Shown: piece by piece, positions 6,794 through 41,853 of the stretch
How positions within the stretch are numbered: the stretch's first letter is position 1
How the letters are laid out: each line of letters begins with the position of its first letter
Assembly: GCF_017569925.1 (NCBI RefSeq)
Contig: NZ_CP050854.1
Location: 4,774,001-4,838,000, forward strand
Length of the DNA: 64,000 nucleotides
Direction: 5' to 3'
Origin: Brenneria izadpanahii
Lineage (GTDB): Bacteria; Pseudomonadota; Gammaproteobacteria; Enterobacterales; Enterobacteriaceae
Made by a program: the position numbers and the translations under genes
Notes under the pieces: model-generated
Database searches by the model: none
What the model saw: the letters and a program-made list of their open reading frames with translations, nothing else
Told to the model about the DNA's origin: nothing

Positions 6794-6827
6794 AAGCAAT
6801 TCTAATATCCCTGATAAGAGTAATTTT

Positions 6828-7763
6828 ATGGCACACAAAATTTGGGTGATGGGTGACGCCGTGGTTGATCTCATTCCAGAAGACGCAGAACGTTATCTCA
6901 AATGCCCGGGAGGCGCGCCTGCGAATGTGGCGGTGGGTATTGCCAGATTAGGAGGCCAAAGCGCCTTTATCGGCCGGGTAGGCGATGACGTCTTCGGTCA
7001 TTTTCTGCGCGACGTGCTGGCTCGGGAACAGGTCGATACGCATCGCATGATCGGAGACAGCGAGCATCGGACTTCCACCGTGGTGGTCAGCCTGGACCAT
7101 CAGGGCGAACGTTCATTTACCTTTATGGTTCGCCCCAGTGCCGATCTGTTTATACAACCGAGTGATCTGCCCCAGTTCAAACAGGGCGAATGGCTGCACC
7201 TCTGTTCCATTGCCTTATCCCAGGAGCCCTCGCGCAGCACGGCCTTCGAAGCGATGCGGCGTATAAAAGCCGTAAACGGATGGGTTAGCTTCGATCCCAA
7301 TATCCGTGAGGATCTCTGGTCCAGCGAACAAACCTTGAAACAGTGCCTGAACCAGGCTCTGGAACTGGCGGACGTGGTTAAATTATCGCGTGAAGAGTTG
7401 GCTTTTCTCAGCACAACCGACGATGTGGAACAAGGGGTCGAGCAGCTTATGCAACGCTACCCGATTAAACTGCTGTTGGTCACCATGGGCAGTGAAGGCG
7501 TTTGGCTGCACGACCGTCAGCAGCGGCGACACTTTCAGGCGCCTTATGTAACGCCGGTGGATACCACTGGTGCTGGCGACGCTTTTGTCGCCGGGTTATT
7601 GCAGGGATTGGCCGAATATGACGACTTATCGCAGCCGACTTCATGGGATAATGTGATCGAACAGGCGCAGCTTTGCGGCGCGCTGGCAACGACGGCGAAA
7701 GGCGCGATGACGGCCCTGCCTCTTGCGCAACAACTCCATTCAACCTCTCTGGCCAGACCCTAG
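6828..7763 (+). CDS. scrK: Fructokinase
   Basis: This PfkB-family sugar kinase phosphorylates the free fructose released when sucrose-6-phosphate is cleaved. It is 311 residues. The N-terminal signature GGAPANVAVGIARLGG lies near residues 26-41. The C-terminal signature DTTGAGDAFVAG lies near 245-256, with the catalytic aspartate in GAGD. It is the first gene of the scrK-scrY-scrA-scrB-scrR cluster, in the order known from plasmid pUR400 and Pectobacterium. A gap of 193 bp with its own operator-like site separates it from scrY. Confidence 0.95.
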   Translation: MAHKIWVMGDAVVDLIPEDAERYLKCPGGAPANVAVGIARLGGQSAFIGRVGDDVFGHFLRDVLAREQVDTHRMIGDSEHRTSTVVVSLDHQGERSFTFMVRPSADLFIQPSDLPQFKQGEWLHLCSIALSQEPSRSTAFEAMRRIKAVNGWVSFDPNIREDLWSSEQTLKQCLNQALELADVVKLSREELAFLSTTDDVEQGVEQLMQRYPIKLLLVTMGSEGVWLHDRQQRRHFQAPYVTPVDTTGAGDAFVAGLLQGLAEYDDLSQPTSWDNVIEQAQLCGALATTAKGAMTALPLAQQLHSTSLARP

Positions 7764-26483: not shown

Positions 26484-26568
26484 GCCGAAGTGGCGAAATC
26501 GGTAGACGCAGTTGATTCAAAATCAACCGTAGAAATACGTGCCGGTTCGAGTCCGGCCTTCGGCACCA
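26484..26568 (+). tRNA. leuX: tRNA-Leu (anticodon CAA)
   Basis: An 85-base class II tRNA. The acceptor stem GCCGAAG pairs with CTTCGGC before an encoded ACCA. The anticodon loop TTCAAAA gives CAA between GTTGA and TCAAC arms. A long variable arm and the T-loop GGTTCGAGTCC are visible. It matches E. coli leuX in sequence and in position after lptG. The 3' end serves as the integration site of the island that follows. Confidence 0.97.
26551..26568 (+). repeat. attL: island attachment site within tRNA-Leu 3' end
   Basis: The last 18 bases of the tRNA (GTCCGGCCTTCGGCACCA) recur, with one G missing, at 50845-50861. This pair brackets the integrase-bearing island. Confidence 0.85.
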
Positions 26569-26690: not shown

Positions 26691-26742
26691 GTGAGTATAG
26701 AACCGAGTATATATGCTGGTTCGATATTGCTTATATACTCAC
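26691..26742. repeat. Candidate integrase arm-type binding sites, left end
   Basis: Three copies of a (T)GAGTATA word occur between the tRNA and the integrase gene: GTGAGTATAG at 26691, GAGTATATAT at 26705, and the inverted TATATACTCAC at 26732-26742. Two more lie just inside attR at 50765-50785 and nowhere else was the motif noticed, as expected for arm sites. Confidence 0.6.
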
Positions 26743-26768
26743 AGCAGGATTATGGAAGGATAACCATT

Positions 26769-28028
26769 ATGGCCCTGACAGATACTAAGGTACGTTCTGC
26801 TAAACCCGAGGAAAAAGAGTATTCGCTGGTCGATGGCGACGGCATGTTTTTGCTAGTTCATCCCAATGGCTCAAAATACTGGCGCTTTCGTTTTCGCTTC
26901 GGTGGCAAACAGCACCTGATGGCGTTTGGCGTCTATCCCGAAGTTTCACTGGCGGATGCCAGACAGAAGCGGGAAGACGCCAGAAAGTTGGTTGCTGCGG
27001 GCATTGATCCGCGTGAGCAAAAACGTGCGGTACAAGAAGAACAGGCGAAGGCGGTATTCACTTTTGAGTTTGTAGCCCGAGAGTGGCACGCTACCAATCA
27101 AAAGTGGTCGGAAGAGCATAGCCGCCGCGTGCTGAAAAGCCTGGAAGATAACCTCTTCTCTGCTATCGGTAAACGCAACATTGCCGAACTCAAAACGCGA
27201 GACCTGTTAGCCCCTATTAAGGTGGTTGAACAATCAGGCCGTCTTGAAGTGGCATCACGACTTCAACAACGCACAACCGCAATAATGCGCTACGCGGTAC
27301 AAAGCGGGTTAATCGACTACAACCCGGCGCAGGAAATGGCGGGCGCTGTGGCATCAAGTAATCGGCAGCATCGTCCTGCACTGGAATTAAAGCATACTCC
27401 CGAGCTGCTTCAGCGCATCGATAGCTATACCGGCAGGCCATTAACGCGTTTGGCGGTAGAGTTGACGTTATTGATCTTTATCCGCTCCAGCGAACTGCGC
27501 TTTGCCCGTTGGTCGGAGATCGATTTTGAAACCTCAATGTGGACTATCCCTCCTGAGAGAAAACCGATAGAGGGTGTGAAGCACTCTCATCGTGGCTCAA
27601 AAATGCGTACTCCGCATTTAGTGCCCCTTTCCCGACAGGCGTTAGTTATTTTGAAGCAAATACAGCAATTCAGCGGCAACCATGAACTGATCTTTATTGG
27701 CGATCACGATCCGCGTAAGCCCATGAGTGAAAATACGGTGAACAATGCCTTGCGGGTAATGGGGTACGACACCAAGGTTGACGTCTGCGGTCACGGCTTC
27801 AGGACAATGGCCTGTAGCTCGCTAATTGAATCGGGGTTATGGTCGAGGGATGCAGTGGAGCGCCAGATGAGCCATATGGAACGTAACTCGGTACGGGCGG
27901 CGTACATCCACAAAGCGGAGCATCTGGATGAACGCAAGCTGATGTTGCAATGGTGGGCGGATTTTCTGGATGCGAATCGGGAGAAGGCGGTGAGTGCGTT
28001 TGATTTTGGGAAGTTATTGGCTGACTAA
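26769..28028 (+). CDS. intA: P4-type tyrosine integrase
   Basis: Site-specific recombinase of the P4/CP4-57 family, 419 residues, full length. The start at 26769 (MALTDTKVRSAKPEEK) is the standard family N-terminus and has a GGAAGGA ribosome site 8 bp upstream; in-frame open sequence before it is not needed. An N-terminal DUF4102 arm-binding domain is followed by a core-binding domain. The catalytic part shows the first arginine in SSELRFARW (about 245), HGFR near 342-345 and the nucleophile tyrosine in RAAYIHK near 378. The gene reads away from attL, the usual layout. The symbol intA indicates family resemblance only. Confidence 0.95.
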   Translation: MALTDTKVRSAKPEEKEYSLVDGDGMFLLVHPNGSKYWRFRFRFGGKQHLMAFGVYPEVSLADARQKREDARKLVAAGIDPREQKRAVQEEQAKAVFTFEFVAREWHATNQKWSEEHSRRVLKSLEDNLFSAIGKRNIAELKTRDLLAPIKVVEQSGRLEVASRLQQRTTAIMRYAVQSGLIDYNPAQEMAGAVASSNRQHRPALELKHTPELLQRIDSYTGRPLTRLAVELTLLIFIRSSELRFARWSEIDFETSMWTIPPERKPIEGVKHSHRGSKMRTPHLVPLSRQALVILKQIQQFSGNHELIFIGDHDPRKPMSENTVNNALRVMGYDTKVDVCGHGFRTMACSSLIESGLWSRDAVERQMSHMERNSVRAAYIHKAEHLDERKLMLQWWADFLDANREKAVSAFDFGKLLAD

Positions 28029-28164: not shown

Positions 28165-30945
28165 ATGACGCCAGAAGCGAAGGCGCGCCAGATAATCGAT
28201 TCGAGGCTAGAACAAGCCGGTTGGATTATTCAGGATATGAAGCAAGTTAACCTGTCGGCAGGCCTTGGCGTAGTGATACGTGAATTCCCCACAGACAGCG
28301 GACCTGCGGATTATGTGTTGTTCATAAACCGGGATATGGTCGGCGTCATTGAAGCTAAAAGGGATAGCGCTGGTGAAAATATTACAGTGACCGAGATCCA
28401 GTCCGACCGTTATGCTTCGGCCAAACTGAAATGGCGCAAAGACTCGGCTCCTCTGCGTTTCCTATTCCAAGCTACGGGGCAAATCATCCGCTTTACTGAT
28501 AATGCTGATCCCTCCCCGCGCTCGCGCGAGATCTTCCACTTCTTCAAACCGGAAACCTTGGCAACCTGGCTGGATCAACCAGAGACCCTACGACGCCGTT
28601 TGGCCGAGCAGATGCCTGCCCTGCCAGAGCGTAACTTACGCGACTGCCAAATTAGTGCAGTAACTGGTCTGGAAGCATCATTGGCCCAGAATAAGCCGAG
28701 AGCTTTAGTACATATGGCTACTGGTGCGGGCAAAACCTTTACGGCGATCACTTCGGTGTACCGACTGCTTAAATTTGGCGGTGCTAAGCGTATTCTCTTC
28801 TTGGTGGATACTCGTAACCTCGGCAAACAAGCACATCAAGAGTTCATGGCTTACACTCCGCCGGATGATGGGCGTAAGTTTACTGAACTCTATAACGTAC
28901 AACGTTTGAATTCTCCGAATGTCGATCCCCATGCTCAGGTATGTATCAGTACCATTCAACGGATGTACTCCATCTTAAGTGGCGAACCTATAGACGAGTC
29001 GGCTGAAGATGTTTCTCTCAATGAGGTGCAACAAACCAGTCGGCAAGAAAAGTTTGTTCGCTACAATCCGCTTGTTCCGATAGAGACTTTCGACTTCATC
29101 ATTATCGATGAATGCCATCGAAGCATTTACAACCTTTGGAAGCAGGTTCTCGATTACTTTGACGCCAGTTTGGTAGGCCTGACCGCTACTCCTGATAAGC
29201 GTACCTTTGGCTTTTTTAACGAAAACATTGTTGCTGAATACACTTATGAACAATCAGTCGCTGATGGCGTCAACGTCGGTTACGACGTCTACGAAATCGA
29301 AACGGAAATAACCAAGAAAGGTTCTGAACTTAAAGCTAAAGAATGGGTGGATCATCGCGACCGGCAAACGCGCAAAAAGCGTTGGAGTGAAACTGAGGAA
29401 GATACGATTTATTCAGGGAAAGAGTTGGATCGTTCAGTAGTTAATCCCAGTCAGATTCGCAAAGTGATCCTTGCGATGAAGAATGCAGTTGAAAAACAGA
29501 TCTTTCCATCCCGGCAAGAGACACCCAAAACGCTTATTTTTGCTAAAACAGACAGCCACGCTGATGACATCATCAATATAGTGCGTGAAATCTATGACCA
29601 AGGGAATGCATTTTGCAAGAAAGTCACTTATCGATCGGACGAAGATGCGGATAGTGTCCTCAGTAGTTTTCGTAATGACTACAACCCGCGTATCGCTGTG
29701 ACAGTGGATATGATTGCCACTGGTACTGATATCAAGCCGTTGGAAGTTCTGCTGTTTATGCGTGATGTTCGTAGCAAGGGTTACTACGAGCAGATGAAAG
29801 GCCGAGGTGTGCGATCGCTCGATAGCGATAGCTTGAAGCGTGTGAGTAACAGTGCTGATGGCGATAAAAGTCGTTTCGTGCTGATTGATGCTGTTGGGGT
29901 GGAGAAATCGCTTAAAACTGAGAGCCGCCCACTAGAGAAAAAGCCGAATATTGCGTTGAAGGATCTCCTTCAGGGCGTCGCTATGGGGTGTCGGGATGAT
30001 GACACCGTTTTGTCATTGGCTAATCGTCTCATCCGACTTGCCAAACAGTTGGATGGCAAGGCCAAGGCTCGAATTGAAGAAGCTTCAGGGGGACTGAGTA
30101 TTGGTGAGCTCGGTAAAGGTTTAATCACTGCACTGGATCCCGATGCTATTGTTGCGACAGCGCTTGATATTGCTCTCGCACAGGGGCTTATCCGTAACGA
30201 AGAGACCTTATTGCCTGAGGAGATCGCTGCTGCTCGTGCTGGCCGTGTCGCTGAAGCTTGTGCTCCTTTTGATAAACCATCATTGCGTGATGCTATTGAG
30301 AACGCTCGTCGTGAGCGAGAGCAATTGATTGATCATATCAACCTGGATCAGGTCATCTTCTCTGGCTTCTCTGAACAGGCTGAGAGCCAAGCTAAAGCTA
30401 ATATTGCTGAATTTGTGAGTTATATTCAGCGGCATAAGGATGAAATTGCCGCACTTAGCTTCTTCTATCAACAACCTTACCAGCGACGGGCATTGACCTT
30501 TGACATGATCGAGGAATTGCACGAACATCTCGCCAAGCCGCCATTGATGCTGACCACTGAACGACTATGGAGTGCCTATGCGCGGGTTCAGACCAACCAG
30601 GTCAAAGGCGTTGAGCGCAAGCGCCAACTCACCGATCTGGTCTCGCTGGTCCGTTTTGCCCTGGGGCTAGAGAGTGAGCTCAAACCTTTTGCCGATGAGG
30701 TAGATAAGCGCTTCCAGACCTGGATTTTCCGCCACAACGCTCAACGTGCCAGTGCCTTTACCCCGGAACAAACCGAATGGTTGCGCCTGATCAAAGAGCA
30801 TATTGCCAGCAGTTGCAGCATTCAGCGCGATGATTTTGACTACGCCGAACTGGCCGATAAGGGCGGGTTGCAGAAGGCATGGCAACTATTTGGTAAGGAG
30901 TTGGATACCTTGATAACAGAAATGAATAAGGAATTGGTGGCGTGA
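28165..30945 (+). CDS. hsdR: Type I restriction enzyme R subunit
   Basis: Motor and nuclease subunit of a type I restriction-modification system, 926 residues. The N-terminal PD-(D/E)xK nuclease is seen as GPADYVLF...VGVIEAK (about residues 46-64). The superfamily-2 helicase follows with Walker A TGAGKT (about 187-192), DECH (about 314-317) and the arginine-finger motif KGRGVRS near 543. The C-terminal part resembles the EcoEI-R helical domain. An AAAGGAGGAGG ribosome site precedes the ATG. The stop overlaps the hsdS GTG start. It is the first gene of a coupled five-gene operon. Confidence 0.96.
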   Translation: MTPEAKARQIIDSRLEQAGWIIQDMKQVNLSAGLGVVIREFPTDSGPADYVLFINRDMVGVIEAKRDSAGENITVTEIQSDRYASAKLKWRKDSAPLRFLFQATGQIIRFTDNADPSPRSREIFHFFKPETLATWLDQPETLRRRLAEQMPALPERNLRDCQISAVTGLEASLAQNKPRALVHMATGAGKTFTAITSVYRLLKFGGAKRILFLVDTRNLGKQAHQEFMAYTPPDDGRKFTELYNVQRLNSPNVDPHAQVCISTIQRMYSILSGEPIDESAEDVSLNEVQQTSRQEKFVRYNPLVPIETFDFIIIDECHRSIYNLWKQVLDYFDASLVGLTATPDKRTFGFFNENIVAEYTYEQSVADGVNVGYDVYEIETEITKKGSELKAKEWVDHRDRQTRKKRWSETEEDTIYSGKELDRSVVNPSQIRKVILAMKNAVEKQIFPSRQETPKTLIFAKTDSHADDIINIVREIYDQGNAFCKKVTYRSDEDADSVLSSFRNDYNPRIAVTVDMIATGTDIKPLEVLLFMRDVRSKGYYEQMKGRGVRSLDSDSLKRVSNSADGDKSRFVLIDAVGVEKSLKTESRPLEKKPNIALKDLLQGVAMGCRDDDTVLSLANRLIRLAKQLDGKAKARIEEASGGLSIGELGKGLITALDPDAIVATALDIALAQGLIRNEETLLPEEIAAARAGRVAEACAPFDKPSLRDAIENARREREQLIDHINLDQVIFSGFSEQAESQAKANIAEFVSYIQRHKDEIAALSFFYQQPYQRRALTFDMIEELHEHLAKPPLMLTTERLWSAYARVQTNQVKGVERKRQLTDLVSLVRFALGLESELKPFADEVDKRFQTWIFRHNAQRASAFTPEQTEWLRLIKEHIASSCSIQRDDFDYAELADKGGLQKAWQLFGKELDTLITEMNKELVA

Positions 30946-32669
30946 GTACATTGCCAATCGGATGGGCTCGGGTTGATTTTGATGAATCGGTTGATGTCGT
31001 ATCAGATCGTGGATTTCGAATAAAACAAAAAGACTATCTAACGTCAGGAAAACTACCCGTAATTGATCAAGGTGAAGGATTCATCGGGGGCTACACAAAT
31101 GACCTTGATGCTCAAGTCATATCACCAAGTCCGCTGATCGTTTTCGGCGATCATACACGTCGTTTCAAACTAGTAACATTTCCGTTTGCTGTTGGAGCCG
31201 ATGGCGTAAAACTCTTTTCACCAATCCCTGTTTGGGAACCAAAATTCCTATTTTTACAGCTACAAAATCTCTCTATCGAAAATAGAGGGTATGGTCGTCA
31301 CTTCCAGCATTTACGCAAAAAATCACTTTTTCTTGCCCCTTTCCCAGAACAAATCCGCATCGTAGAAAAACTCGAAGAGCTGCTAACAGGTCTCGATTCT
31401 GGTATGGCCGAGCTTAAAGTTGCACAGAAAAAGCTTTCTCAGTATCGCCAGTCATTGCTCAAAGCCGCCGTCGAAGGGGCTTTGACAGCAGAGTGGCGAG
31501 AGAACAACCCACCGATCGAGAGTGGATCACAACTGTTGGAACGCATTCTGCTTGAGCGCCGCGCGCGCTGGGAAGCCAAGCAGTTGGCCAAGTTCACCGA
31601 GCAGGGCAAAAAACCACCGAAGGACTGGCAGAATAAATACCCTGAGCCGGTTCAGCCCGATACCACTGATTTACCGCAACTGCCGGAGGGGTGGGTTTGG
31701 GCGAGTGTGGAACAAATTGCTTCTGATGAACAATACAGCCTTGCTATAGGACCATTTGGCAGCAACCTTAAAGTTTCTGATTACCGTGCTTCAGGTGTGC
31801 CTTTGGTCTTTGTTCGCAATATTCGCTCCGGCAATTACGGTGGTGAGAACACCAGGTTTGTATCACAGATAAAAGCAAACGAGCTAAGTGCGCATGGTGT
31901 AATGCCGGGTGATGTCGTAGTTACAAAAATGGGCGAGCCACCAGGGGATGCAGACGTATATCCAGACGATCAGCCTCCTGCGATTATCACGGCAGATTGC
32001 ATAAAAATTCGATGCTGTGGCGAATTAATGAACCCATTATTTTTGAAAATAGCGATCAATTCGAATGTTGGAAAGCGTCAAATTGAGCCAATGACTAAAG
32101 GTGTAGCCCAAAAAAAGGTAAGCCTTGGTCGATTCAGTAAGTTAGCGGTCCCTGTACCACCAGCCAATGAACAATCTCTAATTGTGCGGATGGTTGGCGA
32201 AGCAGACAACGATGCTTTTGTACAATTAGCTGCCATCGATTTATCGCTCAAACAATGCAGCGCCCAACGCCAAAATATTCTGCGTGCCGCATTCTCTGGG
32301 CAATTAGTAACGCAGGAGCCTAATGATGAACCTGCCAGCGTGCTGCTGGAACGCATTCGCGCCCAGCGGGCGGAACAGGCTAAGCAGCCTAAACCTCGCA
32401 TGACTAAGAAAAAGGAGAGCACCACAGTGGCTCGCAAATTAATCGATGTACTCACCGAGGCTAGCGACTGGCTGCCAGCACAAGAGGCCTTTCGCCGCTG
32501 TGGGATTGCTGATGGAGCGCAAACCGAAGAGATTGAAGCGCTGTATGCCGAATTGCGCACATTGGATAAGAGTCAGCATCTATCATTCAAGGCGGTCTTC
32601 GACTTGGTTGACACACCGGAAGGCAAAAAACACCGCAAGGTCGCCGACCATTTAAAGTGGGTTGGCTAA
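30942..32669 (+). CDS. hsdS: Type I restriction enzyme specificity subunit
   Basis: Target-recognition subunit of the HsdMSR complex, 575 residues. Two target-recognition domains are visible (about 1-125 and 235-400). Each ends in a helical spacer beginning PFPEQ (about 132) or PVPPANEQ (about 405). A C-terminal extension of about 100 residues (after about 480) carries a Lys-rich linker and a small helical domain, longer than in classical HsdS. The start is GTG overlapping the hsdR stop. It is followed 3 bp later not by hsdM but by an ATPase gene, which is unusual. Confidence 0.93.
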   Translation: MSTLPIGWARVDFDESVDVVSDRGFRIKQKDYLTSGKLPVIDQGEGFIGGYTNDLDAQVISPSPLIVFGDHTRRFKLVTFPFAVGADGVKLFSPIPVWEPKFLFLQLQNLSIENRGYGRHFQHLRKKSLFLAPFPEQIRIVEKLEELLTGLDSGMAELKVAQKKLSQYRQSLLKAAVEGALTAEWRENNPPIESGSQLLERILLERRARWEAKQLAKFTEQGKKPPKDWQNKYPEPVQPDTTDLPQLPEGWVWASVEQIASDEQYSLAIGPFGSNLKVSDYRASGVPLVFVRNIRSGNYGGENTRFVSQIKANELSAHGVMPGDVVVTKMGEPPGDADVYPDDQPPAIITADCIKIRCCGELMNPLFLKIAINSNVGKRQIEPMTKGVAQKKVSLGRFSKLAVPVPPANEQSLIVRMVGEADNDAFVQLAAIDLSLKQCSAQRQNILRAAFSGQLVTQEPNDEPASVLLERIRAQRAEQAKQPKPRMTKKKESTTVARKLIDVLTEASDWLPAQEAFRRCGIADGAQTEEIEALYAELRTLDKSQHLSFKAVFDLVDTPEGKKHRKVADHLKWVG

Positions 32670-32672
32670 ACC

Positions 32673-34403
32673 ATGCGTTTAGATAAGCTCACCATAGGTA
32701 GCGCCAAAGACAGCCCAACCCACCAGTTCAAAAACCTGAAGAATGTCACCATCGACTTTGATGAAGAACATTGGGTCACCGTGGTAATTGGTTGGAACGG
32801 CACCGGAAAATCTAATGTGCTGGAAGCATTGGCTATCATCTTTCGAGATTTGATCGCCAAAAAACGCACACCCTCTTTTGCCTTTCAACTGGCTTATCGC
32901 ATGGGTTCTGACGAAAAGTTGCTCCACATTCACATTGATGCCGACCCAGATCGTGACAAAGAGCCTTTCGTAATTCATGTTGCGACGGACTTGCAGGCCC
33001 GTGGTGAGGGAACTCTGACTCCATTCATCGAAGGTGAGGAGACAGTATCAGCCTTACGTGGTAACGCCATTAAGCTCACAGCCTTCTTGAAGGCAGACAG
33101 CGATTTTCTGCCTCGTTATGTGTTCAGCTACTACTCTGGCGAAAGCCCGCGTATGCATGAGATATTTCGTCCCTACCTGGAAAGCTACGATAGCAAACTG
33201 CGTAACGGCGAAGACCCAGGTTTAAAACGGTTGTTCTATGCCATGCCGGTGCATAGTCAGTTCGTTTTGCTCGCATTTTTGATTCAACAATCAGACATCG
33301 TCAGAACCTTTCTGGATGAACACCTGGGGCTAGACCCTGATGAGGGTATTGAATCCGTACTGTTTGTACTACGTCAACCACCATGGAAATCCAAGGCTAC
33401 CGATGGCGATCCTCGTTTCTGGAATGCGCGTGGTGTAGTGCGTGACTTCTTATCGCGTCTCTATGACATCGCATTGGCTCCGATTGAAGTGTCTCGACAG
33501 GTATCGACATCAATCTGGAACAAAACGACTCTGCAGTTTAAGTATCTCTATGTGAAGGATATTGAGGCACTGCGGCGCTTGGTCGGTGATCAAGTCCCGG
33601 CCCAGTTTTTTCGGGATTTGGAGAGCACCTATGTTTCAGAATTAATTGAAGAAGTTCGCATTAAAGTTCGTCTTAAGAAAAACGATGGTAGCGTGACCTT
33701 TCGCGAGCTAAGTGAAGGTGAGCAGCAGCTGCTCACCGTCCTCGGCTTGCTTCGCTTTACCGCAGAAGATGAAAGCCTATTTCTGTTGGATGAGCCTGAC
33801 ACGCACTTAAACCCCCGCTGGAGTGTGGATTACATATCGTATCTCAAGCAGTTCATTGCGAGCGGTACTACCCATGAAGAGACCAGTCACATCTTGCTCA
33901 CAACTCACAATCCTCTAGCCATTGCCGAACTGGACCGAGAGCAAGTACAAATCTTGCGGATGAGCAAGGAGGATGAACAGCGTCGGATTGTGGCCTGTTA
34001 CCCAGAGATGGCACCTCGAGGAATGGGCTACGCAGCAATCGTGACCAGCGATATGTTTGGAATTGCTTCATCACTGGATCAACCTACACAGTTGCTGTTG
34101 GAAACACAGAGGGCTTTCGCCGCCAAATCACACCTCTCGGTAGAGGAACAGCAAGAACTGGATATCATCAACGCTCAACTAAATCGCCTTGGTTTTCGGT
34201 TTTTCCATCCTGATGACGAATACTCACGATATTTGCGACTTCGCAATGAAATCCTTATGGCTCGTTTTACGGTTACAAAACCAAGAGAGCTAGCGGATAG
34301 AGTGGTTGCTATGAGTCGGAGCGAGCGGGAGGCGCTTGCGACCGCTCTGATTGAAAAGCTGATGTCTGATGATGATGAGCAGATGGATAAGGTCGATCCA
34401 TGA
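32673..34403 (+). CDS. AAA/ABC-type ATPase (PtuA-like) embedded in the hsd operon
   Basis: A 576-residue SMC/ABC-like ATPase. Walker A GWNGTGKSN lies at residues 40-48. An ABC-signature-like LSEGEQQ lies near 345-351. Walker B with D-loop (LFLLDEPDTHLNP) lies near 369-381, and a switch histidine in LLTTHNP near 409. This is the OLD/PtuA-type architecture with a long inserted middle region. It overlaps the HNH gene by 4 bp (ATGA). ATPase plus HNH nuclease is the composition of Septu (PtuA-PtuB) defence systems and of Retron-Ec78-type effectors. The name is by analogy; similarity to PtuA was not computed. Confidence 0.8.
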   Translation: MRLDKLTIGSAKDSPTHQFKNLKNVTIDFDEEHWVTVVIGWNGTGKSNVLEALAIIFRDLIAKKRTPSFAFQLAYRMGSDEKLLHIHIDADPDRDKEPFVIHVATDLQARGEGTLTPFIEGEETVSALRGNAIKLTAFLKADSDFLPRYVFSYYSGESPRMHEIFRPYLESYDSKLRNGEDPGLKRLFYAMPVHSQFVLLAFLIQQSDIVRTFLDEHLGLDPDEGIESVLFVLRQPPWKSKATDGDPRFWNARGVVRDFLSRLYDIALAPIEVSRQVSTSIWNKTTLQFKYLYVKDIEALRRLVGDQVPAQFFRDLESTYVSELIEEVRIKVRLKKNDGSVTFRELSEGEQQLLTVLGLLRFTAEDESLFLLDEPDTHLNPRWSVDYISYLKQFIASGTTHEETSHILLTTHNPLAIAELDREQVQILRMSKEDEQRRIVACYPEMAPRGMGYAAIVTSDMFGIASSLDQPTQLLLETQRAFAAKSHLSVEEQQELDIINAQLNRLGFRFFHPDDEYSRYLRLRNEILMARFTVTKPRELADRVVAMSRSEREALATALIEKLMSDDDEQMDKVDP

Positions 34404-35203
34404 GATATATTGATATTGATGAATTAGAGTTGCCAGATGGATGGTTAGAAAAAGCGGCTACCGCCTCTGCTGCTGTTGCTGCGGGTGCTAAACCAGACGA
34501 TCATTCAGCCGTTTGGCGCGAACTCAAGGATGCTTTGGCTGACCTATTTCCCAATAAAAAATGCTGGTACTGCGAGTCTCCAGTTGATCGCGCGGACAAT
34601 GCAGTCGATCACTTTCGCCCTAAAGGAAGAGTGAGTGATGCAGCACACCCACATAACGGATATCGCTGGTTAAGTTTTGAACCTAAAAATTATCGTTATG
34701 CGTGCACGTTCTGTAACAGTCTGCGCAAAGACGTTGAAAGTGGGACTGTAGCAGGCAAAGCAGATCGTTTTCCACTGATTGTTGAAGCGAACCGTCTTTA
34801 TGCTCCAGGCCCATTGACACAGGAAAAACCCACCTTACTCGATCCCTGCGAACTGAACGACTGGGAATTAATAGGATGCAAACAGGAAAATGGGAAACCG
34901 TGTCCGACAAGCACAGACCAATTAAAAAAAAACAGAGCTGAAGTATCTATTTCTATTTATCACCTCGACTATGAACCCACTTGCAAGCAGCGACATGCTG
35001 CTGCAGTGAGTCTTATGGCTGACATTGCACTAGCAAAGCAATTTTTTGGGCAACCGGGAATGGATGATTTCTTCACTAACGTTGCGAAAAAAATAAAACG
35101 AGCAATCAGCCTTAAGGCTCCTTTCAGTGGGGATATGATTTTTCTCTTGAGGGGACAACGAGACGCAGCTCATCCCTGGATTCAAATGTTGTTGGAACTC
35201 TGA
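34400..35203 (+). CDS. HNH endonuclease-like protein (PtuB-like)
   Basis: A 267-residue protein. The HNH/zinc-finger core is seen as CWYCESPV (about 54-61), VDHFRPKG (about 69-76), then NYRYACTFCNSLRKD (about 94-109). That gives two CXXC zinc pairs and the catalytic-type histidine in DHFRPKG, a pattern shared with TIGR02646/PtuB-type nucleases. It is translationally coupled both to the ATPase before it (ATGA) and to hsdM after it (TGATATG). With the ATPase it probably forms a nuclease complex that cuts DNA or RNA on phage sensing. The substrate is unknown. Confidence 0.8.
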   Translation: MRYIDIDELELPDGWLEKAATASAAVAAGAKPDDHSAVWRELKDALADLFPNKKCWYCESPVDRADNAVDHFRPKGRVSDAAHPHNGYRWLSFEPKNYRYACTFCNSLRKDVESGTVAGKADRFPLIVEANRLYAPGPLTQEKPTLLDPCELNDWELIGCKQENGKPCPTSTDQLKKNRAEVSISIYHLDYEPTCKQRHAAAVSLMADIALAKQFFGQPGMDDFFTNVAKKIKRAISLKAPFSGDMIFLLRGQRDAAHPWIQMLLEL

Positions 35204-35204
35204 T

Positions 35205-36725
35205 ATGAACGCAAGCACCCTAGTCCAGAAACTCTGGAACTTCTGTAACACTCTGCGCGATGATGGCGTCGGTTATGGCGACTATCTGGAGCAGCTCACC
35301 TATCTGTTGTTTTTAAAGCTGGCACACGAATATGCACAAGAGCCCTATAACCACGCCACCAAAATCCCCAAAGGCTATGGCTGGAGCAGTTTGAGCAGCA
35401 AAACTGGCGAGCCGTTAGAGGCGCATTACCTATCTACTCTGCACAAACTGGGGCAGGAGCCGGGTATGCTGGGCGCTATCTTCTTCAAGGCACAGAACAA
35501 GATTCAAGATCCAGCCAAGCTTTCTCGCTTGGTACAACTCATTGATGCGGAAAACTGGATCAGCTTGGATGCCGATACCAAAGGCGATCTCTACGAAGGT
35601 CTGCTGCAAAAAAACGCTGAGGACACCAAGAGTGGTGCCGGTCAGTACTTTACCCCCCGAGCCATCATTCAAGCTATGGTCGCCTGTATGCAGCCCGAGC
35701 CGATGAAAACCATCGCCGATCCTGCCTGTGGCACGGGGGGATTCTTTCTGGTCGTCAATGAATGGTTATCAGGTACAGGTCACTGGCTGCAAGAAAACGC
35801 CGATTGGTTGCAGCGTGAAATTCCCAAGCTCAATAGGACACAAGCGCGCTTTTTGCGTGAGGGGACCTTCTACGGTAACGAGATAGTTTCCAGCACGCGC
35901 CGCATGTGTCTGATGAACCTGTTTTTGCACAATATTGGCGAGCTGTATGGCGAACCAGCGATAGAGCGTTCCGATGCCCTGATTTCAGAGCCAAAAATCA
36001 AGGTTGATTATGTGCTGGCCAATCCACCGTTTGGCAAAAAGAGCAGCATGACCATCACCAATGAAGAGGGTGATGAAGATCGTGATGCGCTGACTTACGA
36101 GCGCCAGGATTTCTGGGAAACTACCTCCAACAAGCAGCTTAACTTTCTACAGCACATCGTCAGCATGCTGAAACTGGATGGCAAGGCTGCAGTAGTACTG
36201 CCTGATAATGTATTATTTGAAGGTGGGGTAGGGGAAAAAATTCGACGGAAATTGCTGGAAAATTGTGATGTTCACACCATACTGCGTTTACCCTCAGGTA
36301 TTTTTTATGCACAAGGCGTAAAAGCTAACGTTGTGTTCTTTGACGCAAAGCCCAAAGATGGGAAAATTCATACAAAAGGAATTTGGTTCTATGATCTGCG
36401 TACTGGCAAGCATTTTACGTTAAAGACTCGTACGCTAAAACTAAATGACTTGCAGGATTTTATCGCTTGCTATAACCCAAAAAATCGTCACAAAAGACAA
36501 GAAACTGAACGTTTCAAGTTCTTCAGCTATGAAGAGCTTGTAGCTAGAGATAAGGCTAGCCTCGATATTTTTTGGTTGAAAGACGACAGCCTGGATAATC
36601 TTGAGGATTTGCCTCCACCAGATGTTCTACAGCACGAAATTATTGAACATTTAGAAGCGGCGTTAACCGCTTTCCGCGAAGTGGCTAATGAGTTACAAGT
36701 TGTATCTAAGCAGACAGATGGCTAA
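35205..36725 (+). CDS. hsdM: Type I restriction enzyme methylase subunit
   Basis: N6-adenine DNA methyltransferase of the type I complex, 506 residues. An HsdM N-terminal helical domain (about 1-130) is followed by SAM motif I DPACGTGGFF near 172-181 and catalytic motif IV NPPFG near 271. It protects host DNA when joined with HsdS. It is the last of five coupled genes and starts 1 bp after the HNH gene stop. Having hsdM separated from hsdS by two other genes is not the usual order. Confidence 0.95.
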   Translation: MNASTLVQKLWNFCNTLRDDGVGYGDYLEQLTYLLFLKLAHEYAQEPYNHATKIPKGYGWSSLSSKTGEPLEAHYLSTLHKLGQEPGMLGAIFFKAQNKIQDPAKLSRLVQLIDAENWISLDADTKGDLYEGLLQKNAEDTKSGAGQYFTPRAIIQAMVACMQPEPMKTIADPACGTGGFFLVVNEWLSGTGHWLQENADWLQREIPKLNRTQARFLREGTFYGNEIVSSTRRMCLMNLFLHNIGELYGEPAIERSDALISEPKIKVDYVLANPPFGKKSSMTITNEEGDEDRDALTYERQDFWETTSNKQLNFLQHIVSMLKLDGKAAVVLPDNVLFEGGVGEKIRRKLLENCDVHTILRLPSGIFYAQGVKANVVFFDAKPKDGKIHTKGIWFYDLRTGKHFTLKTRTLKLNDLQDFIACYNPKNRHKRQETERFKFFSYEELVARDKASLDIFWLKDDSLDNLEDLPPPDVLQHEIIEHLEAALTAFREVANELQVVSKQTDG

Positions 36726-36886: not shown

Positions 36887-37909
36887 TTATCTAAAGTTGG
36901 ATTGACGAGGACGACCTCGTTTTTTCGATTGATTCTTTATCATTTCTCCTCGACCAAATATTCTGGAGTTATTTGGCAGCGTTAATCGTATTATACTATC
37001 GGTTTTTGTTAAGTATTTTATGGCTATTTTTAAATTATTTCTTTTCTTGTTATCTGAGTAATGTACATTGCCGATTCCTGACCTATCGTCCTGATGATAG
37101 GCTGCATTGCAGTTGAAATAGAGCCCCATGCCATCAGTTATTTTTTGTGACCAATATACTCCAACAAGTCTAGCCAATAAAATATCATTGCGAACTTTAT
37201 TGCCATCAAAAAAAAAGCAAGTATGGTAATGAAATCCTTTAATGGAGCCAAATTCCATTTTCCACAAGTAACCTATACAATACTGAAATAATGAGTGTGA
37301 TTGTACGCTTTTCATTAATTTTTTACGATGGATTTGAGTAGTCGCCGCTGTTATTGAATTGTATTTCGACTTTAGATACGAAAGATCAACTCTGAGCACT
37401 AAGATTTTGCTATAGTTTTCAAAAAGTTCGTCGATGTAAGACAATGAACTTAAATAGTTTTTTTTAGCTGTTCGATGAAAGTTCCGTAGTTTTCTTTTAT
37501 ATTTTACTGAGTTTGATTCAACCTGAAATTGGTGTAGTAAATTATTTAGCGTAATTATGTCCGCCGGGGTTGGATTTGATTCCCCTAGCGTTCTATATAG
37601 GTTGTTATTTTTTTTAATATGAAAAAACAACTCTATTAGCGGATGGGGTTTATGATATTCGCACATGGAGTTTTTAACCTGTTCAATACAACTTATTGCT
37701 TCTAATAAAATACGGGTTGTATATTTATTATTTACTGTCGCGTTAGTGTTTAAGGATGTGTTTTCCTTTCGTACGAGTTGGTTTAATATTGACAGTATTC
37801 GTACCTGTGATTTAATGTAATCATAATCTTTTGTTATCAATAATGTTGTGTCATTGATTGCGTCGTGTAAGCATGATGATTCTAATAATGACCATTCTTT
37901 ATCATTCAT
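36887..37909 (-). CDS. YfjJ/YagK-like protein with inovirus Gp2-type domain
   Basis: A 340-residue basic protein encoded in AT-rich DNA unlike the hsd genes. Its C-terminal half contains GFHYHTCFFFDG (about residues 222-233) followed by LARLVGVYW and a KYLTKTD segment near 300, as in the YagK/YfjJ C-terminal domain family (inovirus-type Gp2). The HxH-like hydrophobic motif recalls HUH replication proteins, but a clear catalytic tyrosine was not assigned. Such genes occur in P4-like islands near alpA. A role in island replication or regulation is an inference. Confidence 0.7.
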   Translation of the reverse strand: MNDKEWSLLESSCLHDAINDTTLLITKDYDYIKSQVRILSILNQLVRKENTSLNTNATVNNKYTTRILLEAISCIEQVKNSMCEYHKPHPLIELFFHIKKNNNLYRTLGESNPTPADIITLNNLLHQFQVESNSVKYKRKLRNFHRTAKKNYLSSLSYIDELFENYSKILVLRVDLSYLKSKYNSITAATTQIHRKKLMKSVQSHSLFQYCIGYLWKMEFGSIKGFHYHTCFFFDGNKVRNDILLARLVGVYWSQKITDGMGLYFNCNAAYHQDDRSGIGNVHYSDNKKRNNLKIAIKYLTKTDSIIRLTLPNNSRIFGRGEMIKNQSKKRGRPRQSNFR

Positions 37910-38110
37910 TGTAGTAACTCTTCTACTCTCTCAAAAAGTAATGTTTATATGGATGGGTCGTGATTAAGTTATTATTTATAAGCAATTAGTATATAATAAA
38001 ATCCTAAATGCTTAAGTTGAGTATTTAAGTGGGTAATAACCATTGGAGGGGTTTCATTACAGATCTCTTACGTATAGACGGTATTCCCGGGATAATACCG
38101 TGATAGCAAG
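37910..38110. other. AT-rich gap between the Gp2-like gene and alpA
   Basis: About 200 bp of very AT-rich sequence. A GACGGTATTCCCGGGATAATACCGTG stretch near 38076-38101 contains the near-palindrome CGGTATT...AATACCG, which may be a regulator-binding site or a weak stem for alpA read-out. Confidence 0.4.
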
Positions 38111-38338
38111 TTAGTGATCTGTTAGTGATCTGTTATCATCAGGATAATGGCTATTTAGCCATCTTAGATAAATTCTTAGTTCCCAACGACTGCGGTTGCC
38201 TATTTTTATTGGCTTAGGGAAGAGACCACTAGCCATAAGCTTGTAGAAGAAGGCCCGAGAGAGTCCGGAGTGCTGACATAGATATTTCATGTCAACTAAG
38301 CGATCTGCCGGGTTTTCGTCAAGAGAGATTGCGTTCAT
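38111..38338 (-). CDS. alpA: AlpA-family phage regulatory protein
   Basis: A 75-residue excisionase-like regulator with the AlpA/MerR winged helix: YLCQHSGLSRAFFYKLMASGLFPKPIKIGNR, ending in a tryptophan-rich segment. The start at 38338 (MNAISLDENP) was chosen because GAGGTG lies 6 bp upstream; an in-frame ATG 45 bp further upstream has no such site. AlpA proteins switch on integrase or excision in CP4-57-type elements, so this is the likely control gene for mobility of the island. Confidence 0.88.
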   Translation of the reverse strand: MNAISLDENPADRLVDMKYLCQHSGLSRAFFYKLMASGLFPKPIKIGNRSRWELRIYLRWLNSHYPDDNRSLTDH

Positions 38339-38702
38339 TTTATTCACCTCGCTGTTTTTAAATTCGAGATGAAGCATAAACACTGGTAGTAAAAATTACT
38401 TGGTAAGAAATTTATCCAAAAAACTTACTAACTACATCAGCGTTGATTGCACAGTGATGTTGCGTGACTATGATTCAGGTCGCAGAGGCTTTAGCAATAG
38501 TTCTAACCATGAAAAAATTATGAAAACCGATATGATAGAAAGTGTATGTATTGCCTGAATAACTTATTATTATGGTTTCGTTAATTTTGTAGTTTTTTTG
38601 ATAAAGCCGTAAAGTAGCCTATGGGATGGACTCTTACTCTAACCGCGAAGAGAACTGCGTAAATCATGTATCTATGGAAACATGAATATAAATTACTTTT
38701 AC
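38339..38702. other. Regulatory gap between alpA and the next minus-strand gene
   Basis: About 360 bp, AT-rich, with no credible gene. In P4-like elements the alpA promoter lies in such a gap; AACTTACTAAC and similar A/T-rich words near 38425 are seen but no defined site is assigned. Confidence 0.35.
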
Positions 38703-39647
38703 CTACTTGGTGTTTTTTATTAACTCCTCAATAGTCATCGTTTTAAGATTTTCATTTTTCTGAATTGCTATTGATAGTTGTTCTAGCCTGCCATCGTTAA
38801 AAGTAAGATCAAAAGTTTTAAGTTTTGTTGCCTTGAAATTAGAACCATCAAATTCGACATATTTATTTGGCGTATCTATATCTTCAAGACTTAATAGTTT
38901 GTTGACTTGAGATAAGGGTATCTGAATGCCATTAATTCTTTGCCAAATTAATAGGTCAGCAATAGGTATTACTTGGTTTCTAAATATATCAATTATTTTA
39001 TTTTTAGGGAGCGGTTTTTCCGTGTAATTGAATTTTTTTTCTATTTTATATCTTTCTCGTAAAGTTGAAATTGTGTTTTTGAATGAATCGATTAATTGTG
39101 CATCTGTGTATCCTTCTAAATCGACATATAAATAAACATGGTCGACATAAGGCTTTTGAAGGCTTGTTAATGTATCTGCTTTATTTGGCTCATCATCGTC
39201 TGTAATGTGTTTAATATAAGGAGAATGAAAGTCACGTAATTTTAGATTTTGATAAATATTCTCAATGTGCGATACCGTTAATTCATATACTGGCGATTTA
39301 ATTTCTATGGTTCTATTTTCTATATTAAAGCATAATGATTTATTTTCTTCTTTTGATATATCTTCTAGTTGGGAGGTTTCTTGATAAGTGTTTTTTCTTA
39401 TTTCTGGTTTTCCAGAGATAATATCAATGTATGATTTTTTTATGCCAGGGAAGTCAATAAGTTCCTCATGCGAAGAAAATCCGATAAGCTCAAGACGAGC
39501 GTATAATTCATCTAACATATCCGCGATGGTTAATTTCCGAACAAAGTTGTAATTTTTTATATTAAACCAACTCACATCCTCTCGTGTGGCCTTATGTTTC
39601 TTTGTAGTGGGGGATGTTAACATTTTCGTATATATGTTTTCTTTCAT
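38703..39647 (-). CDS. Uncharacterised P4-island protein (DUF6387-like)
   Basis: A 314-residue protein in AT-rich DNA. The N-terminal segment WFNIKNYNFVRKLTIADMLDELYARLEL (quoted in parts: WFNIKNYNF, then LTIADMLDEL) fits an uncharacterised family often found in alpA-bearing islands, which I recall as DUF6387. A second block, VYLYVDLEGYTDAQLIDSF, around residue 170 and DLLIWQRINGIQIP near 233 are the most ordered parts. There is no signal peptide or membrane helix. It may be a regulator of the element; no function can be assigned. Confidence 0.6.
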   Translation of the reverse strand: MKENIYTKMLTSPTTKKHKATREDVSWFNIKNYNFVRKLTIADMLDELYARLELIGFSSHEELIDFPGIKKSYIDIISGKPEIRKNTYQETSQLEDISKEENKSLCFNIENRTIEIKSPVYELTVSHIENIYQNLKLRDFHSPYIKHITDDDEPNKADTLTSLQKPYVDHVYLYVDLEGYTDAQLIDSFKNTISTLRERYKIEKKFNYTEKPLPKNKIIDIFRNQVIPIADLLIWQRINGIQIPLSQVNKLLSLEDIDTPNKYVEFDGSNFKATKLKTFDLTFNDGRLEQLSIAIQKNENLKTMTIEELIKNTK

Positions 39648-40345
39648 TATTCTTTCCCTTTTTTATCATTTAAATATATTATTGAATTAATGTCTTGTTT
39701 TTTAAATTCCTATCTTTTGTCTAGCATTGGAGTGAACCTGTTTTTTCTGAATTTAATTTTGACTGTTGTTTTATCGCTTGATTGAGGCAGCAAATCCATA
39801 AATCATACCGTAAATACAATTTAGTATCTGCTATTTCTGCTATTAATAGCAGAAATAGCAGATACTGAACAGCATACACCACGTATGATTTAAGAGTCTA
39901 TACCAGTACAGGCTATGATGCTGTCAGTTTGGACACGAACAGCGTGCAGAAACTGGAGCATACTGGTAGCACATGAGAATGTTGAGTAAAATGAAATAGG
40001 CTAAATGGGATAGCTTCTATGTCTATCACTATGTTCTTTATGTAATGAAAAAGAGATTATAATCATTGAGTGTACGGTTGAAAGTATTCGATGATAATTG
40101 GTAAGTGATATTTTCCTCTTGGTGAAATATAACAAATTTGCGAATTTTGATATATGTACCCACCGTTTTTTTGATGATTAGCTCATCAATGTAAAATATA
40201 GTTTTGTTTTTTATTGGAAAAAATAAATACACCATTTAGACGTAATTATCAACACGGATTTTTATTATTTTATGGCCTTTGAGTTAAATAAAAAATATAA
40301 GAGTGGTGTTGTAAGTCGTGTGGTTATCTTCTCTTTGGTGAAATA
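39648..40345. other. 700-bp AT-rich non-coding region with a large palindrome
   Basis: No convincing gene. A 65-codon frame at 40038-40235 lacks a ribosome site and family features. The region holds the palindrome at 39800-39891 and two similar words, CTCTTGGTGAAATATAA (about 40115) and CTCTTTGGTGAAATAAAA (about 40331). Its place next to the primase/helicase-like gene makes it a candidate replication origin region. Confidence 0.5.
39800..39891. repeat. 44-bp perfect palindrome with outer inverted repeat; candidate origin or regulator site
   Basis: Bases 39823-39866 are a perfect 22+22 inverted repeat with no loop, built from tandem CTGCTATT words. An outer pair, AAATCATAC (39800-39808) and GTATGATTT (39883-39891), is almost symmetric about the same centre. 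It has no T-run and lies 500 bp from the nearest gene end, so it is not a terminator for either flanking gene. Confidence 0.75.
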
Positions 40346-40374
40346 AAACGCGCCTTCATTGAAGGCGCGTTTTT
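40346..40374. terminator. Intrinsic terminator downstream of the DUF3987 gene
   Basis: AAACGCGCCTTC-ATT-GAAGGCGCGTTTTT: a 12-bp stem with a 3- to 4-base loop and T-runs on both strands. It lies 22 bp after the minus-strand stop at 40396. Confidence 0.88.
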
Positions 40375-40395
40375 ACTATTGCTACGTATGGTAAG

Positions 40396-41853
40396 TCAAA
40401 ATACTGATTTATTTTGTACTTTATAGTAAACAAAAATTGTTTTTCCATATGGTGCTACTTGAATTTTTCCAGTGTCATGCAAGTATCTAAGCGCGGATTC
40501 AAAGCGTGTGTATTGGCGTAATGAGTTTGGGCCGTACTGACGTATATGGTTTTTTTTAATGGGTTGAAAGTTATTCATATGAAAACGTTCTATCAACCAT
40601 TCATAGAGCACATTAGCATCTGAGATGTACTGTGGTTCTGGGGTTAGGATTCGTAAAGCTTCACTTAGATACCACTGGCAGACGGCAACAGCATTTTCCA
40701 CGTTTTCTAATGTTATATCTCCATCTTCGTTGCTAAAATAATGAAAGAGAGCGGCCATGCGAGCTATTTTATTTCCTTCTTTGCTTGCAAAATCACGAAT
40801 AGAGAAATAGTCACCATTAACACCAACTCTACGTTCAATCTGATCACACAAATATATCCATCGATTTTTAGCGTCAGGAGAGAAATGTAATAATGTGCGA
40901 TTTTTATTCTTGGATGTAAGTGTTCCTAAATAATGGTTTAACATCTGGTTAAGACGTGAGTAATAAGGGAGAATAAGATTGTGGTAGTTATTATTCATGT
41001 TTCCTATACGGGTGCCAATTGTTGATATCGGAAAGGAAAAGAAAAAACGAGCTAAAAAGCCACTGCCCCTAACTTGTTCGTGCGCATGTTTAAGGTACTT
41101 ATGCAATGGCGCATTTTGCACCATTATATTTGCACTCAGCCGAGATCCGAATATTTTATAGCTCTCAGAATGACGACGTGTGACAGAAATCGGCATTCCA
41201 TCCCATAACTCGTTGAGCAATGCCAAATTTTTAAACGCTTGGCTGTTTATTATTTCTCCACCTTCGGATGAGTGTAGTGCTAATGATCCTCCACCTGTGT
41301 GTAATAAATGTTGCAAGGCCGCCGGTGTTATATCGTTAGCTAATAGTTGCACTTTTCTCGGTAGCTGTGGTTCATTCTGAAAATGCTCCATTAGCTGTGC
41401 TTTTACATCATCTGTTGGCAATTTTTTTCTTGTATTGTTTTTGAGGTTGTTTTTTATTGCGCTTAATTCCATTTCCCAAATATCTAATTCAAATTTGTAT
41501 TTTTTTAAATCTTCTTGATGTTTTAAATAAGCGATTTTTTCATGTTCATGAATCGGCTGCATAAATATTTTATCAACCGTTGATTTCCTTTCCCCCGATT
41601 CTGCAACTGTTAAAAAATTGCATGAGACTGGGAATGTAAGCCCATCCTTAGGGCTTACATCAATCATCCCTTGAGCTAATAGTGCTATGGGGGCCATTGC
41701 CGAAGCAAAGATAAGAGGTATTGGTGCTTGGGTTTTACTACTTACTGCACTAATAGCATCTCGGAGCACATCTGGAATTTTTTCTGAAGGAAAAGTTGGA
41801 TTTTCTAAATGAGAGTTAGGGGCTACCATATTGGTATTCGCTAAATAATTCAT
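40396..41853 (-). CDS. DUF3987 (YfjI-like) primase/helicase-type protein
   Basis: A 485-residue member of the YfjI/DUF3987 family, common in P4-like islands and plasmids and thought to act in element replication. The N-terminal block LIFASAMAPIALLAQGMIDVSP leads to a degenerate P-loop region, LTVAESGERKST (residues about 78-90). SSEGGEIINSQAF (about 192) and a C-terminal winged-helix region (about 415-480) follow. A promoter and weak ribosome site lie in the 41854-42240 gap. It is AT-rich like its minus-strand neighbours. Function is inferred from family context only. Confidence 0.75.
   Translation of the reverse strand: MNYLANTNMVAPNSHLENPTFPSEKIPDVLRDAISAVSSKTQAPIPLIFASAMAPIALLAQGMIDVSPKDGLTFPVSCNFLTVAESGERKSTVDKIFMQPIHEHEKIAYLKHQEDLKKYKFELDIWEMELSAIKNNLKNNTRKKLPTDDVKAQLMEHFQNEPQLPRKVQLLANDITPAALQHLLHTGGGSLALHSSEGGEIINSQAFKNLALLNELWDGMPISVTRRHSESYKIFGSRLSANIMVQNAPLHKYLKHAHEQVRGSGFLARFFFSFPISTIGTRIGNMNNNYHNLILPYYSRLNQMLNHYLGTLTSKNKNRTLLHFSPDAKNRWIYLCDQIERRVGVNGDYFSIRDFASKEGNKIARMAALFHYFSNEDGDITLENVENAVAVCQWYLSEALRILTPEPQYISDANVLYEWLIERFHMNNFQPIKKNHIRQYGPNSLRQYTRFESALRYLHDTGKIQVAPYGKTIFVYYKVQNKSVF

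Follow-up and report, generated by a model that had tools for sequence, protein, structure and literature searches.

A Septu-type ATPase-nuclease pair embedded in a type I restriction-modification operon of Brenneria izadpanahii, with a candidate docking tail on the specificity subunit

Introduction

What does a Septu-type nuclease sense? In the absence of an associated partner, for instance a retron, it is unclear what serves as its sensor, and the question is posed by an operon of Brenneria izadpanahii in which an ATPase-HNH nuclease pair of the Septu type, PtuA-PtuB (PtuAB), is embedded among the genes of a type I restriction-modification system. This operon, hsdR-hsdS-ptuA-ptuB-hsdM, is part of the 64,000-nucleotide stretch of DNA analyzed here (contig NZ_CP050854.1, positions 4,774,001 to 4,838,000; referred to in the following as the window). 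On balance, we think it more likely than not that PtuAB is a tethered effector of the type I methyltransferase complex that provides it with an extra, and sometimes with its main, effector arm. The strongest clue to such a physical coupling is a C-terminal tail of the specificity subunit HsdS, a feature overlooked in an earlier sequence-only reading of the locus.

Defence genes inside type I operons have been published before. Excerpts of the pertinent reports describe TgvAB (with RloF cited in the same source; PMC11411939), DarTG2 (PMC12255303), and PrrC in the company of HsdR, HsdS and HsdM (PMC11555353). TgvAB, RloF and DarTG2 resemble the pair in the window in their location between hsd genes; they belong, however, to other effector families, TgvAB acts alone, and the excerpts mention no HsdS tail. 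The PrrC/EcoprrI-type operon likewise holds an effector gene among hsd genes, and the order in which its genes are listed points to the same slot, following hsdS; yet PrrC is a single ATPase-nuclease protein, whereas the nuclease of the window is a separate HNH protein. In the accessible text of publications matching both Septu and HsdS, a Septu-HsdS arrangement is not described, and neither the HsdS tail nor an operon layout devoid of hsdR was found in the literature searched; a 2024 preprint (10.1101/2024.01.29.577857, known from the references of PMC12988326) may describe Septu inside type I operons. The nearest published statement to the HsdS tail that we found, again in an excerpt, concerns BrxX of BREX, in which a winged helix follows a spacer (PMC12839542).

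Results

Five genes are read in a single direction from position 28165 to position 36725, and their junctions either overlap or leave 1-3 nucleotides (nt). The sequence-only reading had proposed a translationally coupled hsd operon, and every junction on which it relied was reproduced in the DNA to the base: a GTGA overlap of hsdR and hsdS, the sequence TAA, 3 nt, ATG between hsdS and ptuA, an ATGA overlap of ptuA and ptuB, and the TGATATG that connects ptuB to hsdM. The type I set of the window is complete, with HsdR, HsdS and HsdM each recognized by both Pfam and PADLOC; a script located an NPPF motif in HsdM, and a nuclease-like D..E.K stretch, GAGKT and DECH in HsdR. The same script recovered the motifs of an SMC/ABC-like ATPase and of a CXXC/DHFRPK HNH protein that had been noted for the two middle proteins, namely Walker A (GWNGTGKS at residue 40), LSEGE (at 346) and LFLLDEPD (at 369) in PtuA, and CWYC, DHFRPK and CTFCN in PtuB. 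Walker A, signature and Walker B are conserved across 19 PtuA sequences, and residues H71, R73, P74, K75, N97 and N106 of PtuB are invariant in 21 sequences. The PtuB homologue of locus L017 (8630-9439) is devoid of two of the four zinc-finger-like cysteines and retains EHFRPK.

The assignment of the pair as PtuA/PtuB-like was borne out by PADLOC profiles, by sequence comparison with the Protein Data Bank (PDB) and by predicted fold. The curated Septu profiles of PADLOC were matched with 1208 and 335 bits, and the folds closest to the PtuA model are those of Septu PtuA together with retron PtuA, at an identity to solved PtuA chains of only about 12-21%; the structure of AriA, determined together with Ocr, is also close in fold. 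Pfam matches over the cut-off were AAA_21, AAA_15, SMC_N and ABC_tran for the ATPase, without a PrrC-type family among them (no separate search with a PrrC model was made), and none for the HNH protein. Like Septu (E. coli Septu 8EEA, Septu EcB88), the window possesses adjacent, overlapping genes for an ABC/SMC-like ATPase and an HNH protein that match the PtuA1/PtuB1 profiles; unlike Septu, a pair of the window type does not stand alone and has hsdS directly upstream. Retron I-A systems (Ec78/Eco7, Ec83) employ the same effector pair, solved in complex with the retron module. A retron I-A was nevertheless rejected for the window: no reverse transcriptase is found among the nine proteins scanned (26.7 to 41.9 kb), Rfam reports tRNA only and no retron RNA between 26 and 56 kb, and the pair stays below the cut-offs of the NCBIfam retron PtuA and PtuB models (48 of 500 and 17 of 150). 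A housekeeping SMC/RecF protein was likewise rejected, with SMC_N only slightly exceeding the Pfam threshold (40.5 of 40 bits) as opposed to the score of the PtuA profile, and so was MADS, whose MAD2, MAD3 and MAD5 models scored 103 of 720, 36 of 420 and 23 of 400 bits, far below cut-off. MADS and the restriction-associated ATPase family TIGR04435, against which the ATPase of the window scores 136 bits at a cut-off of 300, resemble our operon in that an ATPase accompanies type I-like M and S proteins. In locus L113 (10413-14810), a TIGR04435 ATPase above this cut-off (453 bits) follows an HsdS with a 97-residue extension of its own and precedes a gene for a 357-amino acid (aa) protein without NCBIfam match, possibly a sister system. 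The PADLOC PtuA model PDLC00302 also matches the HsdR N-terminus at 66 bits (28165-28563, residues 1-133), and an HsdR-like sequence is perhaps contained in its seed.

How firmly is the pair tied to hsd genes in other genomes? Scanning a genome collection of 84,980 species for PtuA, a procedure that requires one of six exact peptides and thus retrieves close relatives only, yielded 26 loci with 53-92% identity in their best segments. hsdS is positioned directly 5' of ptuA in all 26 of them, and ptuB follows ptuA in 23, the exceptions being two loci cut off by a contig end (L007, L015) and the fragmentary L026. Linkage to hsdS was also seen for the single match among 5,426 E. coli genomes (DNA search) and for both other PtuA matches in 398 sampled genomes (E 1e-25), so that, besides the window, 29 of 29 PtuA-driven loci are linked. 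Chance neighbourhood was consequently rejected, and this systematic linkage makes it likely that the genes constitute one functional unit, as the sequence-only reading had suspected.

Two gene orders emerged from this survey. The order R-S-A-B-M of the window recurs, with 1-2 kb between ptuB and hsdM in L003, L013 and L020, beside a second layout, M-S-A-B, which possesses another type of HsdM (about 37% identical to that of the window) and has hsdR upstream in L014, L017 and L021. The junction of hsdS and ptuA ranges from a 4-nt overlap to a 7-nt gap in 23 of the 24 other loci with a value given; the sole exception (-65 in L017) stems from choosing the longest possible start. In L026 (7797-9627), HsdR, HsdS and PtuA are reduced to abutting fragments, as after large deletions, and PtuA is spread over two reading frames in L084 (8227-9947, reverse-complement coordinates), where the tail-bearing HsdS and PtuB are open. 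The M-S-A-B operons of L008 and L019 (Comamonas and Luteimonas records) are near-identical (HsdM 99.8%), reflecting either a recent transfer between families or contamination.

The HsdS of the window terminates in a predicted winged helix of about 80 residues, which AlphaFold2 models as three helices followed by two strands (pLDDT 84). This tail was found in none of 56 control HsdS proteins without PtuA, assembled from HsdM-gathered, plasmid and E. coli collections (best E 0.74). Eight PtuA-like-linked HsdS proteins of the same pool gave four strong and two weak tail matches; the other two gave none but carry an extension of 97-98 residues. C-terminal extensions of linked HsdS span 97-114 residues (7 of 8 measured), as compared with a median of 28 in the controls (44 of 56 measured), six of which exceed 60 and in some of which the motif was matched elsewhere. 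For this comparison, 7 of 71 HsdS rows were dropped as duplicates, the near-copies L030/L031 and L105/L106 were kept, and a few control loci (e.g., L114) stop at a contig end beyond which a gene could be missed. A tail-only search of viral contigs retrieved three loci, all of them R-S-A-B-M and two with identical HsdM. Among the 398 sampled genomes, 203 of which encode an HsdS domain, the tail search produced two strong matches (the own genome and G668), both before PtuA; three weak ones (21-24 bits) were set aside as chance because the proteins are dissimilar to the queries, and the tail of G408, with an E of 2e-5 in its own locus, was missed at genome scale. In 369 genomes of the class, the tail occurs in the own genome only, and a plasmid search with the tail, in which PtuA itself was not used as a query, gave no match. 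The own genome encodes a second HsdS-domain gene outside the window (G000:C1:4151573-4152691).

No Pfam family passed its cut-off for the tail of the window, its two matches both falling under their cut-offs; at E up to 1, the tail family gave weak matches only (Sua5_C in 11 of 25 members, best E 0.0086), and the best PDB match by sequence had an E of 0.079. Foldseek reached a best E of 0.01, with no match at 0.001; among many others, the ScpA winged helix bound to the SMC head ties with the tail. In divergent PtuA clades, the tail was matched in L083 (E 2e-5), L104 (0.0021) and L039 (0.011), with no match in L113 and L067. The alignments leave homology in these clades unsettled, and we do not claim the tail for every PtuA-like ATPase.

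We compared distances in 24 operons including that of the window, leaving out L019 (a copy of L008), L083, L084 and loci in which any of the four proteins is missing, and took the first 430 residues of PtuA as its core. Between the two layouts, identity amounts to 24% for the HsdS body, 40% for HsdM, 47% for the tail and 68% for the PtuA core. Tail and PtuA core distances are correlated (r 0.87; partial 0.81 given HsdM; 0 of 2000 permutations as high), whereas given the PtuA core the tail shows only 0.13 with HsdM and -0.11 with PtuB. The C-terminal part of PtuA, in turn, correlates with PtuB at 0.95, and the values within proteins, HsdS body versus its own tail and PtuA core versus its own C-terminus, are only 0.49. 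The units of inheritance consequently cross gene borders, the tail going with the PtuA core and the PtuA C-terminus with PtuB. A chain from HsdS tail to PtuA to PtuB would yield such co-inheritance, although part of it is due to proximity in the DNA. The combination of tail and PtuA is maintained on three HsdM backgrounds. In a comparison with the nearest relative, the Pectobacterium locus L001, the DNA of integrase and hsdR shows 97-99% identity; the value drops to 41-89% (250-nt steps) from about 30.85 kb and is back at 96-98% from 36.35 kb, a position inside hsdM. The recognition-effector block, which starts at hsdS and ends within hsdM, thus differs as one piece.

Related operons dispense with hsdR. 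Nine M-S-A-B loci (L008, L016, L018, L019, L022, L025, L032, L083, L084) contain no HsdR-like gene in flanks that extend for roughly 5 kb or further to either side of the operon, and the same holds for the flanks of L005 (S-A-B-M); L007 and L024 were limited in this check by a contig end or a short contig. Where HsdM is less than 50% identical to that of the window, hsdR accompanies 4 of 17 PtuA-like-linked loci and is absent from 13. Under a flank rule of at least 4 kb upstream and at least 2 kb downstream of hsdM, with a detected hsdS and no PtuA-like match required in addition of controls, the figures are 2 of 14 linked loci versus 25 of 25 PtuA-free controls (Fisher 2e-8 for loci that are not independent); three linked loci were removed by this rule, L017 and L021 with hsdR and L024 without it. 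Counted among the linked loci are L113 (TIGR04435), L039 and L104, all found via HsdM, and L004 was counted as hsdR-positive despite holding a remnant only. This 235-aa remnant (6540-7247; query residues 1-57, 565-687 and 864-926) precedes an otherwise intact S-A-B-M set.

In the HsdM tree, 11 members of the R-less M-S-A-B type form one clade with a support of 100 (quick method, SH-aLRT only), found in Comamonadaceae, Lysobacteraceae, Phyllobacteriaceae, Roseobacteraceae, Caulobacteraceae, Stappiaceae, Sphingomonadaceae, a Rickettsiales bin and E. coli; the R-less L005, L039 and L104 branch elsewhere. HsdM of six and HsdS of three R-less operons match their families well. Nine genomes, seven with M-S-A-B plus those of L005 and L004, were searched whole for HsdR. 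HSDR_N had no match in three of them (L016, L024, L025), and the HsdR queries from the window and L021 (E 1e-10) found relatives only in the genome of L008, plus the remnant in that of L004. A total lack of HsdR in the R-less genomes is not certain because HSDR_N barely recognizes even the HsdR of the window (25.0 against 25.1). A DNA search for hsdR in E. coli gave no match. A RelE gene is located before hsdM in L008.

The operon is probably the first cargo of a genomic island, as it follows an integrase and a tRNA-Leu gene (Table 1). A second copy of the tRNA end that could mark the other attachment site was not found in the window, which offers a 15-nt match only. The A-T-rich part of the island on the minus strand (36887-41853, GC about 0.33-0.36) encodes YagK/YfjJ-like, DUF6387 and DUF3987 proteins. 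Promoter-like sites are uninformative, with 11 counted and 10.9 expected by shuffling. In the HsdM survey, the slot between hsdS and hsdM holds genes for DUF3800, Schlafen AlbA_2, DUF4917/PDC-S21, HEPN and TIR proteins (among L064-L078), and plasmid slots (L034, L037, L038) hold DUF262, HIRAN or GIY-YIG genes; elsewhere the slot is empty, hsdS directly preceding hsdM (e.g., L078, L089-L093, L096). Given these varied contents and the embedded defences already published, the slot itself is of a known kind, and it is a possible source of new effectors.

Table 1. Genes and features of the operon and the neighbouring integrase and tRNA-Leu gene
Feature	Position in the window	Strand	Description
tRNA-Leu (caa)	26484..26568	+	ARAGORN, Rfam; probable integration site of the island
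Tyrosine integrase	26691..28028	+	next to tRNA-Leu; Pfam Arm-DNA-bind_3, Phage_int_M, Phage_integrase; 99.8% identical in Pectobacterium L001
hsdR	28165..30945	+	926 aa, EcoEI/EcoAI-like restriction and translocation subunit; Pfam EcoEI_R_C 138 bits, ResIII 124 bits; PADLOC REase_I
hsdS	30942..32669	+	575 aa specificity subunit, GTG start, 4 nt overlap with hsdR; Pfam Methylase_S; PADLOC Specificity_I 287 bits
HsdS C-terminal tail	32415..32666	+	residues 492-575; predicted winged helix (alignment, AlphaFold2)
ptuA	32673..34403	+	576 aa ABC/SMC-like ATPase; PADLOC PtuA1 PDLC00302 1208 bits
ptuB	34400..35203	+	267 aa HNH nuclease-like protein; PADLOC PtuB1 PDLC00330 335 bits; PDB profile matches to retron PtuB and Septu PtuB
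hsdM	35205..36725	+	506 aa N6-adenine methyltransferase subunit; Pfam N6_Mtase 225 bits and HsdM_N; PADLOC MTase_I 647 bits

Discussion

From the gene order, the HsdS tail, its co-inheritance with PtuA and the hsdR-less layout, all of which are observed, we infer how PtuAB may be docked, triggered and targeted. The HsdS tail would dock onto the ATPase head of PtuA, PtuA would hold PtuB, and the HsdS-HsdM complex would supply the signal. Most probably, the signal would arise when this complex binds foreign, unmodified DNA or when a phage anti-restriction protein captures it; PtuA would then switch, and PtuB would cut nucleic acid, either phage DNA or host tRNA. In the window, PtuAB would thereby represent a second arm beside HsdR, and it would act without HsdR in the hsdR-less relatives. 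The hsdR-less layout agrees best with firing when unmodified DNA is recognized, and a PrrC-like guarding of the M-S complex could apply. HsdR is not needed for the association of PtuAB with hsd genes, and guarding of HsdR cannot be the general role of the pair because related operons keep hsdM-hsdS-ptuA-ptuB without hsdR in their flanks.

Several observations weigh against a tethered effector. TgvAB, which resides inside a type I operon of Vibrio cholerae, protects as two genes alone according to the part of the report available (PMC11411939), and embedding therefore need not mean coupling. In Foldseek, the fold neighbours of the tail include regulators of the MarR, Fur and PadR types on a level with ScpA, and no match reached an E of 0.001. 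Winged helices are common, and many of them bind DNA. The tail and ptuA are spaced by 3 nt, and shared recombination tracts can raise their correlation. Where HsdM is at least 50% identical to that of the window, the layout of the window, hsdR is about equally common with PtuA (13 of 14) and without it (14 of 15); PtuAB is, for this reason, not a general replacement for HsdR. One clade accounts for most of the R-less contrast, and a partial PtuA-like match precedes hsdM in L094, a locus found via HsdM, with no HsdS detected by the query used. Two hsdR-less operons contain further genes: in L016 (4346-5893) a Fic gene overlaps the hsdM start, and in L024 (4058-4987) hsdM and hsdS are separated by a DUF4357 gene; PtuAB is the effector pair common to R-less operons, and it is not always the sole candidate.

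Could PtuAB instead be an independent Septu system that senses the phage itself and merely gains co-transfer and co-expression from its seat in an hsd operon? The scoring of the pair by PADLOC as ordinary PtuA1/PtuB1, the many unrelated genes that occupy the hsdS-hsdM slot of related operons, and the autonomy of TgvAB, as far as the excerpt of PMC11411939 describes it, speak in its favor. We regard this explanation as rather unlikely, for it would not lead one to expect a tail that is restricted to PtuA-linked HsdS and tracks the PtuA core, nor a long-lived hsdR-less clade that keeps hsdM, hsdS, ptuA and ptuB. Less probable still is a PrrC-like guard in which the R-M-S complex holds PtuAB latent until a phage inhibitor (Ocr, Stp) binds and releases it. 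The gene list of PrrC170 (HsdR, HsdS, PrrC, HsdM) in the excerpt of PMC11555353 would correspond to the same slot, Stp inhibition of EcoprrI activates PrrC according to the accessible text of PMC12707154, and AriA, whose structure includes Ocr, is close to the PtuA model in fold; but hsdR-less operons hold no restriction enzyme to guard, even if their M-S complex could still be sensed.

It is very improbable that the tail is simply a DNA-binding or autoregulatory winged helix of HsdS whose link to PtuA reflects hitchhiking in one recombination block. Its fold does tie with those of many DNA-binding regulators, and the window and L001 do differ by a single block. Tail and PtuA are found together, however, on three HsdM backgrounds despite an HsdS body identity of about 24% between layouts, and an autoregulatory domain would be expected on some PtuA-free HsdS proteins, where the tail was found in 0 of 56. 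Beyond the tethered effector that we favor, we tentatively consider it possible, with clearly less confidence, that hsdM-hsdS-ptuA-ptuB constitutes a distinct kind of restriction-modification system, in which a kleisin-like winged helix on the specificity subunit of a type I methyltransferase serves as the dock for an SMC-like ATPase and PtuAB replaces HsdR as the effector; the five-gene operon of the window would then be the form with both arms.

The operon is real and not a chance assembly, it is more interesting than the analogy to PrrC that had initially been suggested for it, and the small domain at the end of HsdS makes the coupling testable by offering a handle for a clean experiment. 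If HsdS is indeed the partner of PtuAB, the rule by which the pair tells self from non-self could be read as DNA methylation at a defined site. This would also account for the ability of a type I complex to recruit a second nuclease, and operons devoid of hsdR, apparent leftovers at first sight, would be working immune systems.

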